A DNA stretch of 36,013 nt. Source: a virus. The DNA is taken from the IMG/VR virus record IMGVR_UViG_3300042695_000873, positions 1 through 36,013 of that record, one strand, 5' to 3'. The translations under genes and the position numbers were made by a program. Below are positions 4,668-13,959 of the stretch, piece by piece. Under the pieces are notes generated by a model. That model saw only the letters and a list, made by a program, of their open reading frames with translations, searched no databases and was not told where the DNA came from. Within the stretch, counting starts at the first letter, position 1. Every line of letters begins with the position of its first letter.

Positions 4668-4887
4668 GTCAGCTGAACTGTGGATGATCGGTATCTCCGT
4701 GGCTGCGGCAGTGGTGCCGTGGGCCATGTCGATCCATGCCAAGGTCGCGGTGATCGCGAAGAGCGTGGAAGAGTTGCCCGATCTGGTGCGAGAGCTACGC
4801 GAAACTCTGGAGGAGCATGAGGTGAGACTGGATAAGCATGACCAAGAAATTGCGGCTATCAAAGTACAGACAAGGTCTGGTTACTGA
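4660..4887 (+). CDS. Membrane-anchored coiled-coil protein
   Basis: This 75-residue protein has an N-terminal transmembrane segment (IGISVAAAVVPWAMSIHAK) followed by a heptad-rich, charged coiled coil (VEELPDLVRELRETLEEHE ...). The architecture resembles small phage accessory proteins near lysis genes such as XhlA-type proteins, but that is only a shape resemblance. ATG 4660 has GGGG upstream and overlaps the previous gene. A holin-accessory or membrane-tether role is possible. Confidence 0.55.
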   Translation: MSESAELWMIGISVAAAVVPWAMSIHAKVAVIAKSVEELPDLVRELRETLEEHEVRLDKHDQEIAAIKVQTRSGY

Positions 4888-5458
4888 ATACCAGCCGCTC
4901 GTCCAGATACTCGGCCGGTACTTCCTGCAGAACCGCCCGCACTGGCAGCGGTCTGTCTACCTTGCAGACTTGGAGGGTGAGGGATACCTCGCCCTGTGCA
5001 AGGCTGCCCGGACTTACGATAAGAGCCGGCTGCCCTACCCCAAGGCGTACTTCGCCAGGGCTATTCTCAACTCCATGCTGAAGCACATCAAACGTGCGAC
5101 CCGCCAGCCTGGGCTGACCAAGATCAGTCTGCAGGAGGCGGCCGATCTGATGCCGGAGTTCGACCAGCTAGATCACCTGCGGATTGCCATCGAAGACCTG
5201 CCCGTCGAAGACAGGGAGATCGCCACCGACAGGTTCATGGGTGGCTCTACCCTGCGGACGCTGTCAGAGGACCATGAGATACCGCTGCGGGTGGCGTCTC
5301 TTCGGGCTGCGCGCCTAGCCAAGACGCTTGCGGAACAGCTGGATATCCGGCTCTCGCCGCGCGGCACAGGCTACGCACATCGGGCGGGTGATACCAACCC
5401 GAAGAAGTCTTTTTCGTCGCCGGCTTCCGCACGCCCTCGCGGCAAAGGCAGAGGGTGA
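4838..5458 (+). CDS. Sigma-70 family RNA polymerase sigma factor
   Basis: A 206-residue sigma-like protein. Region 2 is visible at about residues 24-88 (YLADLEGEGYLALCKAARTYD, then PYPKAYFARAILNSMLKHIKR), the core-binding and -10 recognition helices. Region 4 follows at about 118-170 (LPVEDREIATDRFMGG, then LSEDHEIPLRVASLRAARLAK), a helix-turn-helix for -35 contact. It would redirect host RNA polymerase to phage promoters. The C-terminal ~35 residues are low-complexity and basic. Its 3' 212 bases overlap the convergent recombinase gene on the opposite strand. It ends the plus-strand operon. Confidence 0.85.
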   Translation: MTKKLRLSKYRQGLVTEYQPLVQILGRYFLQNRPHWQRSVYLADLEGEGYLALCKAARTYDKSRLPYPKAYFARAILNSMLKHIKRATRQPGLTKISLQEAADLMPEFDQLDHLRIAIEDLPVEDREIATDRFMGGSTLRTLSEDHEIPLRVASLRAARLAKTLAEQLDIRLSPRGTGYAHRAGDTNPKKSFSSPASARPRGKGRG

Positions 5459-6023
5459 TCGCATTCCAAGACATGCCCCGGTCCCGCATGTCTACTACCC
5501 GGTTGCCTAGTACACGCTCGCGTTCGCACGGCACCCACTCCTTATCTCCCCGCACCCAGCCAAAGGGACGGGTGCCAGCGTAGGGCTTGCCGTTCCGCTT
5601 CAGGTAGCCGAAGGCATCGGATACCCGCCGGCCGATCCGCTTGCGTTCGTACTGTGCCCAGCTTGCGAACTGGCAGAACATCATCTCCCCCTCGTCCGTG
5701 GCCGTGTCGATAGGGAAGTCCAGGATGGAGAGCTTCACCCCGTACTGTCTCCAGGTGGCCAGGGTGCCGGCCGCATCGGCGGTGTTACGCCAGCCACGGT
5801 CTAGCTTGGTGACGAGGACGAGGTCCCCCTTCTCCAGCAAATCCCACATGACTTTCCCCTGGGGTCGGTCACGCAGTGGCACCTTGCCAGAGACATCCTC
5901 GTCCAGAAAGATGCGGTCAATCTTCCGGCCATGCTTCTCGGCATGGGCCTCCAGTTCCTGCCGCTGGTTGTCCAGACTGATCGACTGATCGTCCGTCGAT
6001 ACCCGGCAGTACCCGTAGATCAT
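5247..6023 (-). CDS. Serine site-specific recombinase (resolvase/invertase family)
   Basis: This 258-residue protein has the N-terminal resolvase domain: YGYCRVSTDDQ with nucleophile Ser9, ISLDNQRQEL, LVTKLDRGWRNT carrying active-site arginines, and QFASWAQYERKRI leading to the long helix. The C-terminal part (GMSWNAITLCLC, SGWYHPPDVRSLCRA) is a short DNA-binding tail. It cuts and rejoins DNA through a phosphoserine link, for integration, inversion or resolution. ATG 6023 is chosen for GGGAGGT 3 bases upstream. It is the last gene of the minus-strand operon. It overlaps the sigma gene by 212 bases in antisense. No attachment site was identified nearby. Confidence 0.9.
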   Translation of the reverse strand: MIYGYCRVSTDDQSISLDNQRQELEAHAEKHGRKIDRIFLDEDVSGKVPLRDRPQGKVMWDLLEKGDLVLVTKLDRGWRNTADAAGTLATWRQYGVKLSILDFPIDTATDEGEMMFCQFASWAQYERKRIGRRVSDAFGYLKRNGKPYAGTRPFGWVRGDKEWVPCERERVLGNRVVDMRDRGMSWNAITLCLCREGVRKPATKKTSSGWYHPPDVRSLCRAARAGYPAVPQASWLGAQPEETPPAAVSHGPLTASAG

Positions 6024-6024
6024 G

Positions 6025-6102
6025 CTACCTCCCGGATGCAAAGAGAATCACGGCGACCACGATCACACTGCCCACCACAAAGTCTGCCAATGGCGACATC
6101 AT
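6025..6102 (-). CDS. 25-residue single-helix membrane peptide
   Basis: A tiny frame starts at ATG 6102 (second ATG at 6099) with GGAGGT four bases before, overlapping the previous gene's stop. The peptide is MMSPLADF followed by VVGSVIVVAVILFASGR, one transmembrane helix. It ends two bases before the recombinase start, and the recombinase ribosome site is inside its last codons. The strong ribosome site and tight coupling support translation, although this size is uncertain. Confidence 0.5.
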   Translation of the reverse strand: MMSPLADFVVGSVIVVAVILFASGR

Positions 6103-6803: not shown

Positions 6804-7024
6804 CAGTAGTCCTCCTCAACTAGGGTGTCATAGAACTTCTTCAACGCCTTCTGCATGAACGCGGCAGGATCGCAACCATCCTGATCGCACAGGTGCAGGA
6901 TGCTAACCACCAAATCCTGCATGACGTAGCCCTGGTCCGCATCGATATCACGGCCGGTGTCACGGGCGAACTGCTCGCACGCACGCAGGCCACGCTTCGC
7001 AATCGTCTTGTCTCCGGTAAGCAT
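6803..7024 (-). CDS. Hypothetical small helical protein
   Basis: This 73-residue protein contains KRGLRACEQFARDTGRDID and MQDLVVSILHLCDQDGCDP, both helical, and an acidic C-terminus. ATG 7024 is preferred over GTG 7027 because the GGGGGAA ribosome site is then at a usable distance and the TGATG junction matches the neighbours. No family is recognised. Confidence 0.65.
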   Translation of the reverse strand: MLTGDKTIAKRGLRACEQFARDTGRDIDADQGYVMQDLVVSILHLCDQDGCDPAAFMQKALKKFYDTLVEEDY

Positions 7025-7260
7025 CACTTCCCCCTGTACTGGTTGACCAAAGCCTGGACGGACTGCACGTCTACAGATCGTGCATCAAAATCCGGCAGGC
7101 CCTTCACCCCACGCTGACGGTATTCCTTCAGCCGTTTGCACACGGCCTGATGGGTTACCCCCAACTCCGCAGCCACATCGGTAATCGTACCGTCCGCATG
7201 CTTCATCACTGCGGCAATGAACTTCTCGGCCGATGTCTTCGGCGCTCGCTTCTTAGCCAT
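7024..7260 (-). CDS. Small helix-turn-helix DNA-binding protein
   Basis: A 78-residue protein with a clear HTH: FIAAVMKHADGTITDVAAELGVTHQAVCKRLKEYRQRG at about residues 12-50, with the turn at ELGVTHQ and recognition helix QAVCKRLKEY. The N-terminus is basic (MAKKRAPK). It probably binds DNA as a repressor or activator of phage genes. ATG 7260 has GGAGGTGAG five bases upstream. The C-terminal helix could dimerise. Targets could include the repeats at 12816-12984, which is inference only. Confidence 0.75.
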   Translation of the reverse strand: MAKKRAPKTSAEKFIAAVMKHADGTITDVAAELGVTHQAVCKRLKEYRQRGVKGLPDFDARSVDVQSVQALVNQYRGK

Positions 7261-7496
7261 CACTCACCTCCTGTCTCTAGCATGTGCGCAACCAGCCGCG
7301 TGCAGTCCCTCTGCAAGTCGGCGTCAAACGGATGCCCCCTGTTGGGCCCGGCAAACCAAGACTTCCATTGCCCAGTCGGCTCCTTAATCTCTATCCAAGT
7401 AACCCCCAGCTCTTTGGCGGCGCGCTCGCGTGCCATGCGGGCCCGCAAAGGCAATCGACTGTCTCCAGCGTGGACTCCGAACAGGAACTCAGCCAT
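7260..7496 (-). CDS. Hypothetical small protein
   Basis: This 78-residue protein has an arginine-rich helical segment (RLPLRARMARERAAKELGV) and a Trp-rich stretch (GQWKSWFAGPN). No family is recognised. It starts at ATG 7496 in a TGATG junction and ends one base into the next start. It may bind nucleic acid given its basic N-terminal half, but this is only composition. Confidence 0.6.
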   Translation of the reverse strand: MAEFLFGVHAGDSRLPLRARMARERAAKELGVTWIEIKEPTGQWKSWFAGPNRGHPFDADLQRDCTRLVAHMLETGGE

Positions 7497-11190: not shown

Positions 11191-12003
11191 TCACGCCTGA
11201 AGGATGGGCAGGTTGGCAACGGCCGACATAATCGCCTTGCCACCATGCCCGGGGATGTAAACGTCCACCAATTCCAGACCGACTTTCCGCCGGCCTGCCC
11301 CGTCGCACAGATTGCACGTCAGGCAGGACAGCCGATGGCCGGCTTCCTTACTGGCAGGACAGAGCCGTTCGCCCTCTACTGGCTCACCTCCACGCATGGT
11401 GCGGAAGGTACGCCAGCCGAGAGACTTGGCATGCTCGTATGACCAGGGGCCGGTAAGCCCATGGACGGATGCCATGAGAAACTGCTTGTAGCCCGCATAC
11501 TGCACGTTTGACCACTGGTGAGTATAACCCGTCCAACCGGACGAAATACTGGCCAGATGGCGGAGCAGCCACAGCGGAATCAGCACCGGCTCGCCATAGG
11601 TGCCGAAACGCACCTTGCGACCCTGGATGTACTGATCATGCAGAGCAGGGACATAGTCCACGTAACGGCCACGTTTGAACGCACCGTAGACCATGGCAGG
11701 CCCCTGCCCGACATTCACATAGCAGGCCCGAAAGTTCTTCTTCTTCCTAGACCTGCGTTTCTGCGTAGCAACTAGGCCACGCATGGGGCAATCGTTGCAG
11801 ATACCAACGTCACCCCCGGTACGCACCGCCTGAACCGGATGCACATGTGACCTAATGATGTAGGTCTGGAGCATCGTGCCCGTCTTGCTATTAGAAGACT
11901 TCCCCAGTGGCATGATCACCACATAGGGGCTGCCATCAAAAGCAGACGTACCCCGGTGCAGAATGACACCGAGCGGCTTGGCGGTGCGTGATCGTTTGAC
12001 CAT
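11191..12003 (-). CDS. Cysteine-motif phage protein (DUF7227-like)
   Basis: At 270 residues this is the largest protein in the minus-strand operon. It contains GICNDCPMRGLV and ACYVNVGQGPAMVYGAFKRG, then CPASKEAGHRLSCLTCNLCDG, with paired cysteines that could hold a metal or iron-sulfur site. The C-P..G ... CYVNVGQ arrangement is common in phage and plasmid proteins of unknown function. ATG 12003 has GGAGGT 4 bases upstream. About 300 bases without a gene separate it from the next gene upstream; that gap holds a large inverted repeat. The family name is from memory. Confidence 0.7.
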   Translation of the reverse strand: MVKRSRTAKPLGVILHRGTSAFDGSPYVVIMPLGKSSNSKTGTMLQTYIIRSHVHPVQAVRTGGDVGICNDCPMRGLVATQKRRSRKKKNFRACYVNVGQGPAMVYGAFKRGRYVDYVPALHDQYIQGRKVRFGTYGEPVLIPLWLLRHLASISSGWTGYTHQWSNVQYAGYKQFLMASVHGLTGPWSYEHAKSLGWRTFRTMRGGEPVEGERLCPASKEAGHRLSCLTCNLCDGAGRRKVGLELVDVYIPGHGGKAIMSAVANLPILQA

Positions 12004-12035
12004 ACGCACCTCCGTGAATGGCTACCGAACGGCAG

Positions 12036-12514: not shown

Positions 12515-12556
12515 TGTTCGTACTCCTGGCCTCATCAGTACCCGCATCACGGGTAG

Positions 12557-12574
12557 ACCGGACTAGCGTCCGGT
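12557..12574. other. Perfect 7-bp hairpin between two small genes
   Basis: Accggac and gtccggt flank a 4-base loop (tagc). A second 5-bp hairpin, cccgc/gcggg-type, lies just left of it. There is no T-run on the minus strand, so it is not a typical terminator. It could stabilise or regulate the mRNA between the genes at 12584 and 12514. Confidence 0.35.
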
Positions 12575-12583
12575 TTCGGCCTA

Positions 12584-12739
12584 TCACATGCGTTGCCATG
12601 GGGCCCGCGTGGTCGGAAGGTCCACGCAGAGCCCGAACGCAATCGCATCCCAGATATCACGAATGCCGCCGTAGTCCCCTGGATACTTAAGGGTGGCTAG
12701 GGCTGCGGAGTAACGGCAGCGAAACCAGTTGTAGTCCAT
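12584..12739 (-). CDS. 51-residue protein, first gene of the minus-strand operon
   Basis: The protein has 51 residues and starts at ATG 12739 with AAGGAGGTGCG upstream. It contains DYNWFRCRYSAALATLKYPG and IRDIWDAIAFGLCVDLP, helical and aromatic. No family is recognised. As the first gene after the divergent control region it should be made earliest and most strongly. Confidence 0.6.
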   Translation of the reverse strand: MDYNWFRCRYSAALATLKYPGDYGGIRDIWDAIAFGLCVDLPTTRAPWQRM

Positions 12740-12815
12740 CGCACCTCCTTTGGCTGCCCGCATGCGCAGGAAGCAACACGCTTCCCCTTTCGCATTCGGT
12801 CGTATCGTCGTCGTC

Positions 12816-12837
12816 ATATATGGCGGGAGCGTACCAC
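12816..12837 (+). repeat. Direct repeat copy 1 in the divergent control region
   Basis: A 22-base word ending ggcgggagcgtaccac occurs here and again exactly at 12963-12984, in the same orientation, 147 bases apart. Copy 1 overlaps the likely start region of the minus-strand operon. Exact conservation in non-coding DNA suggests protein-binding sites. Confidence 0.75.
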
Positions 12838-12859
12838 CGTCCGGAAAAATTCCGGACGG
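12837..12859. promoter_or_regulatory. Perfect palindrome with 10-bp arms
   Basis: Ccgtccggaa (12837-12846) and ttccggacgg (12850-12859) are exact inverted copies around an aaa centre. This is the size and symmetry of a dimer-bound operator, and it could also form a hairpin. It touches the end of repeat copy 1. Confidence 0.65.
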
Positions 12860-12916
12860 GATACGCTGGCCGGATGACAAGGCAGCGACACAAGATTACA
12901 ACGTCATTTCACAAAC

Positions 12917-12935
12917 CGCGGGAACGACTCCCGCG
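12917..12935. promoter_or_regulatory. Inverted repeat, 7-bp arms
   Basis: Cgcggga and tcccgcg flank a 5-base spacer. It lies midway between the two direct-repeat copies. It is a possible operator or hairpin of the divergent control region. Confidence 0.4.
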
Positions 12936-12962
12936 ATTGATAAGACGTTGAAAAAGAACGCT

Positions 12963-12984
12963 ATATATGGCGGGAGCGTACCAC
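12963..12984 (+). repeat. Direct repeat copy 2 in the divergent control region
   Basis: Exact second copy of the 22-base repeat, ending 28 bases upstream of the -35 box of the plus-strand promoter. That distance suits an activator or repressor binding site. Confidence 0.75.
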
Positions 12985-13012
12985 GGCCCAAAAATTTTTT
13001 CTGTAGTGGGGC

Positions 13013-13042
13013 TTGACAGTAAGACGATGACTATACTATGAT
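13013..13042 (+). promoter_or_regulatory. Sigma-70 promoter for the 13093 gene
   Basis: TTGACA at 13013-13018 is the perfect -35 consensus. TATGAT at 13037-13042 gives an 18-base spacer; an overlapping TATACT starts at 13032. Transcription would start near 13050, where a leader hairpin begins. Confidence 0.75.
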
Positions 13043-13049
13043 TCAATCG

Positions 13050-13069
13050 TCACGGGCGGTAACCCGTGA
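13050..13069 (+). promoter_or_regulatory. Leader stem-loop
   Basis: Tcacggg and cccgtga form a 7-bp stem around a cggtaa loop. It lies at the predicted transcription start, just before the AAAAGGAG ribosome site. It may stabilise the mRNA or serve as an operator. Confidence 0.5.
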
Positions 13070-13092
13070 AACACTTCAAAAGGAGTAGAACC

Positions 13093-13959
13093 ATGAACAG
13101 CAAAGTGAAGAAAGCAGAAGCCCGCCGCCAAAAGTTGGCCAACGTCACCCATAGGCTTTTCGGGAAGATGGTGACAGCCCCGGCTACGGGAACCGTCTTC
13201 AATCCCCGCCACTACCTAGCAGACCCGGGCAGGTTCAAAGACTGCCTATATTGGTGGCGGTATAAAGCCCAACGGGCGGGAGTGGGTGACGGCCTTCCCG
13301 CCATGCTGCGAGAGTCAGCACTGGATCAAGCGGCCCAAGATACGCTCCAAGTGTTTCTAGATCGCGACTACAAGGAAGCGGGGATAACGGAAGACGAGCC
13401 CGCCCGGGCGGTAATGGGTGCTGCCGCTTTCATGCGACAGGCTTTCTACAGGCTTCCCAGTGAAGGGGATAACCCGCGATCCCGTGACCGCCGGTTATGG
13501 CACCCCTACAATCGGGCGGTGAACGCCGGGACACCTAATCCCGCCGCGATTGTCGCCGCTACCTTCAATGCAACGGAAGACAGGACCGCTCTAATGGGCG
13601 ACTGTGACGATATGCCCGGTGAACCGGTCAACGTCCCCGGTGGCCCCGGCGGGCGGGGACTGACGGACGGGAAGATGGCACCTACGGAGCGTATCGTGGC
13701 GGAGCGTATCGTTGACGGGGAAACGCTTGTGGACATTGAGACAGGCTGGAAGATGGTCCGCAAGCGGGGACGGGCGAAGACGTACCGGGCTTGCGTTGTG
13801 ACGGACGGGAAGCCCGCCCCGCGGAATCGGCACAAGCCCGCCGCGAAGCCCGCCGCCGCTCGCCAACGGGAAAGCGGGGAGCGTTGCATGATCCCGGTCT
13901 ACGCTCCTGACGTTGAAGCGTACCGGGCCGCTCTGGCAGAGTACTACGGGGGAAGGTAG
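13093..13959 (+). CDS. Hypothetical basic protein in its own transcription unit
   Basis: This 288-residue protein is not recognised. It starts at ATG 13093 with AAAAGGAG 8 bases upstream. The N-terminus is very basic (NSKVKKAEARRQKLANVTHR); the middle is rich in Arg, Ala and aromatic residues (LYWWRYKAQRAG); then come Gly/Pro-rich linker PGGPGGRG and a Lys/Arg/Pro/Ala tail. ERIVAERIVDG near residue 200 is encoded by a 13-base tandem repeat (13685-13697, 13700-13712). The GC-rich codon use differs from its neighbours. It has its own promoter and terminator, like a phage moron gene. A nucleic-acid-binding role is possible from charge only. Confidence 0.75.
   Translation: MNSKVKKAEARRQKLANVTHRLFGKMVTAPATGTVFNPRHYLADPGRFKDCLYWWRYKAQRAGVGDGLPAMLRESALDQAAQDTLQVFLDRDYKEAGITEDEPARAVMGAAAFMRQAFYRLPSEGDNPRSRDRRLWHPYNRAVNAGTPNPAAIVAATFNATEDRTALMGDCDDMPGEPVNVPGGPGGRGLTDGKMAPTERIVAERIVDGETLVDIETGWKMVRKRGRAKTYRACVVTDGKPAPRNRHKPAAKPAAARQRESGERCMIPVYAPDVEAYRAALAEYYGGR

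Follow-up and report, generated by a model that had tools for sequence, protein, structure and literature searches.

What does the region between the two opposed transcription units of an uncultured phage control, and which protein reads the repeated sites that lie in it? The phage, here called W (IMG/VR record IMGVR_UViG_3300042695_000873), was analysed over a stretch of 36,013 bases, which we term the window. This stretch is probably a fragment, the larger relatives of this phage type being about 60 kb in size. It encodes a P22-type portal, a large terminase, a serine recombinase and a phage sigma-like gene. Our comparison with related phages makes it rather probable that the region is a divergent control switch, in which A, the protein whose gene opens the rightward (structural) block, would serve as a phage-specific DNA-binding regulator of the repeated operators.

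Paired sites in the divergent region

We found a 22-nt direct repeat, ATATATGGCGGGAGCGTACCAC, at two sites that lie 147 bp apart and are termed O1 and O2. The elements from O1 to gene A are:

12816-12837, plus strand: O1, first copy of the 22-nt site, exact repeat, at an equivalent position in relatives
12837-12859, no strand: palindrome CCGTCCGGAA-AAA-TTCCGGACGG with 10-bp arms, right of O1, read from the sequence
12917-12935, minus strand: hairpin CGCGGGA-ACGAC-TCCCGCG, 27 nt leftward of O2
12963-12984, plus strand: O2, second copy of the 22-nt site, exact repeat, at an equivalent position in relatives
13013-13042, plus strand: PA, sigma70-type promoter of gene A (TTGACA-18-TATGAT)
13050-13069, plus strand: leader hairpin TCACGGG-cggtaa-CCCGTGA at the predicted PA transcript start (z -2.3)
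13093-13959, plus strand: gene A, 288 aa, proposed regulator; its family is hypervariable and varies together with the operator

A chance origin of the repeats was rejected, with shuffle controls far below the observed value: the self-comparison score of the pair is 22, and the maximum in 60 dinucleotide shuffles is 11.5. A sequence-only reading of the region had described two exact repeats, a perfect palindrome and a 7-bp inverted repeat, with the second repeat just upstream of a near-consensus promoter, and this description holds in all parts. Short inverted repeats lie at 12917-12935 and 13050-13069, and 28 bp separate the end of O2 from the -35 hexamer of PA, whose elements (TTGACA at 13013-13018, 18 nt, TATGAT at 13037-13042) give 11/12 matches. 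A search for further copies, which the same reading had proposed, returned no other place within 3 mismatches in the 36,013-base window (0.00 expected, 100 shuffles).

For the comparison, loci that contain the conserved GP88-like gene (11191-12009 in W) were placed in a common frame, and the sequence ahead of the first rightward gene was examined. The best direct-repeat pair beats every shuffle in 29 of 33 phages, mostly at the same two places, and in about 30 relatives the two copies lie roughly 310 and 145 bp ahead of the rightward start codon, with an O2-O1 distance that ranges from 54 to 214 bp across phages. No clear repeat pair was seen in L110 and L093. An inverted third copy, O3, lies in or near the A leader of L085, L092, L094, L095, L097, L098, L099 and L100, and is absent from W and some others. 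The repeat sequence varies by phage, from TATATGGCGGGAGCGTACCA in W and L085 to TATAGGCCGCTCGCC in L088, L114 and L177, ATTACTACTGCGTTACC in L099 and TATATGCACACTT in L174. Absence of the repeat from relatives with the same layout had been named as a result that would speak against paired operators; the same sequence is indeed missing in most of them, but an equivalent pair of another sequence is present. The earlier proposal of paired operators in a divergent control region is well supported, by pairs that recur across relatives and co-vary with one protein. In 12 records of 36-62 kb the sites, at 2-3 copies per phage, are confined to this one intergenic region, and a phage-wide regulon was rejected on these grounds.

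A good sigma70-type PA is present in W and in many relatives. On the leftward side, the minus-strand ATATAT end of O1 is the only TATA-like -10 candidate for a promoter, PL, which is a weak promoter match with a poor -35. Leftward hairpins after the O copies exceed chance (combined p 3e-6 for O1, and 2.5e-12 over 25 phages for O2), and the stretch from O2 to O1 shows strong folding, with a mean z of -3.6 on the leftward strand in 24 phages versus -0.6 for an ORF control. Taken together, the TATA-like -10 within O1, the poor -35, the leftward hairpins and the structured DNA suggest that O1 overlaps a regulator-dependent PL. The O2-O1 stretch could encode a structured leader or a small RNA; in W, the minus strand of 12856-12955, between the two sites, folds far better than its shuffles (z -4.7). 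For the palindrome at 12837-12859, bidirectional-terminator-like or UP-like functions are candidate roles, and an A/T-containing hairpin occupies its position in many relatives.

The structured DNA also fits a reading in which the repeats act as RNA, as leader elements in both directions that are bound by A or pair with each other, and in several relatives O3 in the A leader has the same sense as the reverse-complemented O1 and O2 in the leftward direction. We regard such a function as quite improbable, however, since W and others have no O3, O2 would require a leftward start on its right, and the distance between O2 and O1 is in some phages too short for a common RNA.

Co-variation of the operators with protein A

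By profile comparison, the first rightward proteins across these phages form one family: clades of A that are barely joined by BLAST share a core, with hhalign E-values of 1e-16 to 1e-3 for most clade pairs, weaker values for a few, and 0.03 or worse for unrelated controls. The repeat sequence follows the A clade (W/L083/L085/L101; L088/L114/L177/L100; L092/L097/L098; L087/L096), and pairs of phages with related A proteins tend toward similar repeats, while pairs with unrelated A proteins are at background. Within an A clade, the repeat is kept and the DNA between the copies is often unrecognisable. Between W and L085, for example, A matches at 45% over 230 aa and the repeat at 22 of 22 bases, with spacers at background, and the repeat is likewise kept between unrecognisable spacers in L088/L177 and L088/L114.

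Relatedness of the phage backbone does not explain this pattern, because L084 shares 97% identity with W in the GP88-like protein, yet carries an unrelated A and an unrelated repeat, and L101, at 76% in the same protein, nevertheless has a related A and a related repeat. In a Mantel comparison, the rank correlation between A and the repeat was 0.21 (4/2000), which is significant but modest, and the spacers correlated as well (0.27); as A and its operators are adjacent, co-inheritance explains part of the correlation. A prediction for a phage outside the earlier set was passed: this phage, from a metagenome-assembled genome (MAG), combines an L174-like A with an L174-like repeat pair, TATATGCACAC.

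A natural chimera may indicate where in the protein the specificity resides. L088 carries a class X operator and an A whose core is closest to class X and whose tail is closest to L174 (81%); its residues 61-113 are closest to the TATAGGCCGC class, whose operator L088 carries. Four residues, F70, L88, F94 and R103 (L088 numbering), are common to the 4 phages with the TATAGGCCGC operator and absent from the other 9 short A proteins. Over these 13 sequences, the four residues and the L088 core are suggestive of where specificity may lie.

Joint diversification would also be expected of an initiator and its iterons, and the region does contain hairpins and A/T tracts. A role of the repeats as replication-origin iterons or as a partition site, with A as initiator or partition protein, is nonetheless most improbable: the copies number only 2-4, are spaced 54-214 bp apart and are tied to promoters and leaders, and no replication-protein signature was found in A.

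The candidate binding protein and a possible mode of control

The sequence-only reading had put forward the helix-turn-helix (HTH) protein at 7024-7263 as the binder of the repeats. This protein does contain a real HTH domain (HTH_23, 1.5e-6), but its distribution is wrong for this role. Its gene was not found in the 18-kb locus of L085, although the operator of L085 is exactly that of W, and the protein is present in L084 (91%) and L114 (65%), both with unrelated operators. On this distribution, the HTH protein is disfavoured as the binder. A host factor, for its part, would not predict a repeat that tracks A, and we therefore consider a binder other than A, be it another phage protein or a host factor, very unlikely.

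From the sequence comparison, we infer that A itself binds the O sites. A has no sequence family match in Pfam, PHROG or PDB and no DNA-binding domain recognisable by sequence. AlphaFold models show a confident helical core, and the structure search gave no confident fold for A among the matches listed, where a missing family excludes nothing. The best second-look matches of two separate models include many chains of sigma region 2, with Z-values of about 3-6 (up to 6.2 and 4.6) that are below the meaningful level of the tool and Foldseek E-values above 1. The core of A thus weakly resembles sigma region 2 in its models, with scores too low for a claim of membership.

This weak fold resemblance recalls ECF and phage sigma factors with autoregulated promoters, and A could accordingly be imagined as a private sigma-like factor, for which each O site, read leftward, would be a dedicated promoter made up of a T-tract, a clade-specific element, a TATA-like -10 and a leader hairpin. 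The system would then be a sigma/promoter pair instead of a repressor/operator pair. The retrieved region-2 chains, the hairpins leftward of the O copies and the poor -35 of PL fit such an arrangement. It is unlikely, however: the fold scores are low, Pfam sigma domains gave no match in 29 members of the A family, A has no hhalign link to the sigma factor of the window itself, the sites occupy one locus with no matching promoter set elsewhere, and the distance from T-tract to TATA varies. Also unlikely is a joint reading, in which A would represent a new kind of promoter-specificity factor: its core would be sigma-region-2-like, and it would act at one private divergent switch and not at promoters across the genome, with factor and promoter co-diversifying like an immunity system and a self-cleaving hammerhead ribozyme in the leftward transcript.

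In the favoured reading, with A as DNA-binding regulator, O1 would cover the core of PL and O2 would lie just upstream of PA, the promoter of A itself; many relatives would have the inverted O3 in the A leader as a third operator, so that O2 and O3 flank PA. By occupying O1 and O2 (and O3), A could set the balance between leftward and rightward transcription as well as its own level, and A and operator would diversify together, which, as in phage immunity groups, would leave every lineage with a specificity of its own. CII-type activators act at promoters with a poor -35. As to the sign of regulation, we lean slightly toward activation of the -35-poor PL combined with control of PA.

In its mode of action, the switch most likely resembles a phage immunity region or an early/late control region, and we claim no named repressor family for it. 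A switch of the lysis/lysogeny type, which the sequence-only reading had considered, is not supported: the window does encode a serine recombinase, but none of the close relatives turned up as a clear prophage, and only a distant one (36% in the portal) lies within a longer planctomycete contig. In lambdoid phages, the immunity region comprises cI and cro with OL and OR, that is, divergent promoters, multiple operators and an adjacent fast-diverging regulator. The region in W resembles it in all three respects, with A as the candidate regulator, and differs in that no CI, Cro or CII homolog is present, the operators are not clear dyads, and a single variable gene takes the place of the two opposed regulators. 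The immunity repressors and stoperators of Cluster A mycobacteriophages are similar in that asymmetric sites diversify together with a phage-encoded protein (PMC6550527, PMC9283540). Cluster A repressors, however, belong to the HTH proteins, have known structures and use more than 20 sites of 13 bp spread over the genome (PMC6550527, PMC9283540), in contrast to the 2-4 sites at one locus and the protein without recognisable HTH described here. The many genome-spread sites that mark stoperators were not found in the 12 records. Multiple sites in a divergent promoter region beside a candidate regulator gene, as in an immunity module, were found, and at the level of sequence co-variation the operator diversifies together with A.

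If A and its operators are such a pair, these uncultured, probably planctomycete phages would offer dozens of natural specificities that are readable from sequence. Given that the A family is without known relatives, they may provide a natural experiment that maps protein residues to DNA specificity (for example F70/L88/F94/R103 of L088 versus the TATAGGCCGC class). Should the switch set superinfection exclusion, it would predict incompatibility groups among phages that have never been grown.

The leftward transcript, the relatives and the host

The leftward transcript contains the following elements:

12742-12786, minus strand: conserved leader of the leftward transcript, kept in nearly all relatives, just left of O1
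12769-12785, minus strand: leader hairpin GGAAGC-GTGTT-GCTTCC, GTAACGTATTAC-type
12754-12765, minus strand: leader element GCATGCGGGCAG
12743-12750, minus strand: leader Shine-Dalgarno AAGGAGGT
12584-12739, minus strand: first leftward ORF, 51 aa, exchangeable cassette gene
12524-12581, minus strand: type II hammerhead ribozyme in the leftward transcript, RF02276, 33 bits (gathering 37)

A cassette slot lies behind a fixed leader, since the leader is kept across relatives and the first leftward ORF is exchanged. The hammerhead has an intact CUGAUGA/GAAAC/GUC core and three helices, and is predicted to cleave after the GUC of ...GTCCGGTC, immediately before TACCCG. Seven relatives have versions of it with compensatory changes, close to the switch and on its corresponding side (L189:18442, L214:16330, L228:922, L163:2516, L172:2285, L097:1509, L113:9381). 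In an alignment of 8 phages, 99% of cells are paired and 6 of 15 pairs show compensatory changes. No hammerhead was found in L083, which is without the first cassette gene. Phage genomes with hammerheads were already known in general (PMC7761336).

Literature searches returned no published description of these phages, and nucleotide and protein searches of cultured phages gave no match to the window DNA (bases 1-25000), the portal or A; the GP88-like neighbour was the sole query with cultured-phage matches, all of them distant. Portal relatives at 79-80% are found in a Pirellulaceae MAG, one MAG containing contigs of the phage type of W, and a distant portal relative (36%) sits inside a longer planctomycete contig from a second genome of that phylum. 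A planctomycete host is thus probable, on the weak basis of binning. The A family was not found in G386, a distant planctomycete relative. One contig, L181 (IMGVR_UViG_3300049595_001870, 117,778 bases), has two portal genes 55.7 kb apart; it is probably a concatemer of two phage genomes, and was for this reason left out as separate evidence. In the window, the serine recombinase gene (5247-6041, minus strand) and the sigma-like gene (4838-5458, plus strand) overlap at their 3' ends, and the two are jointly kept in many relatives.
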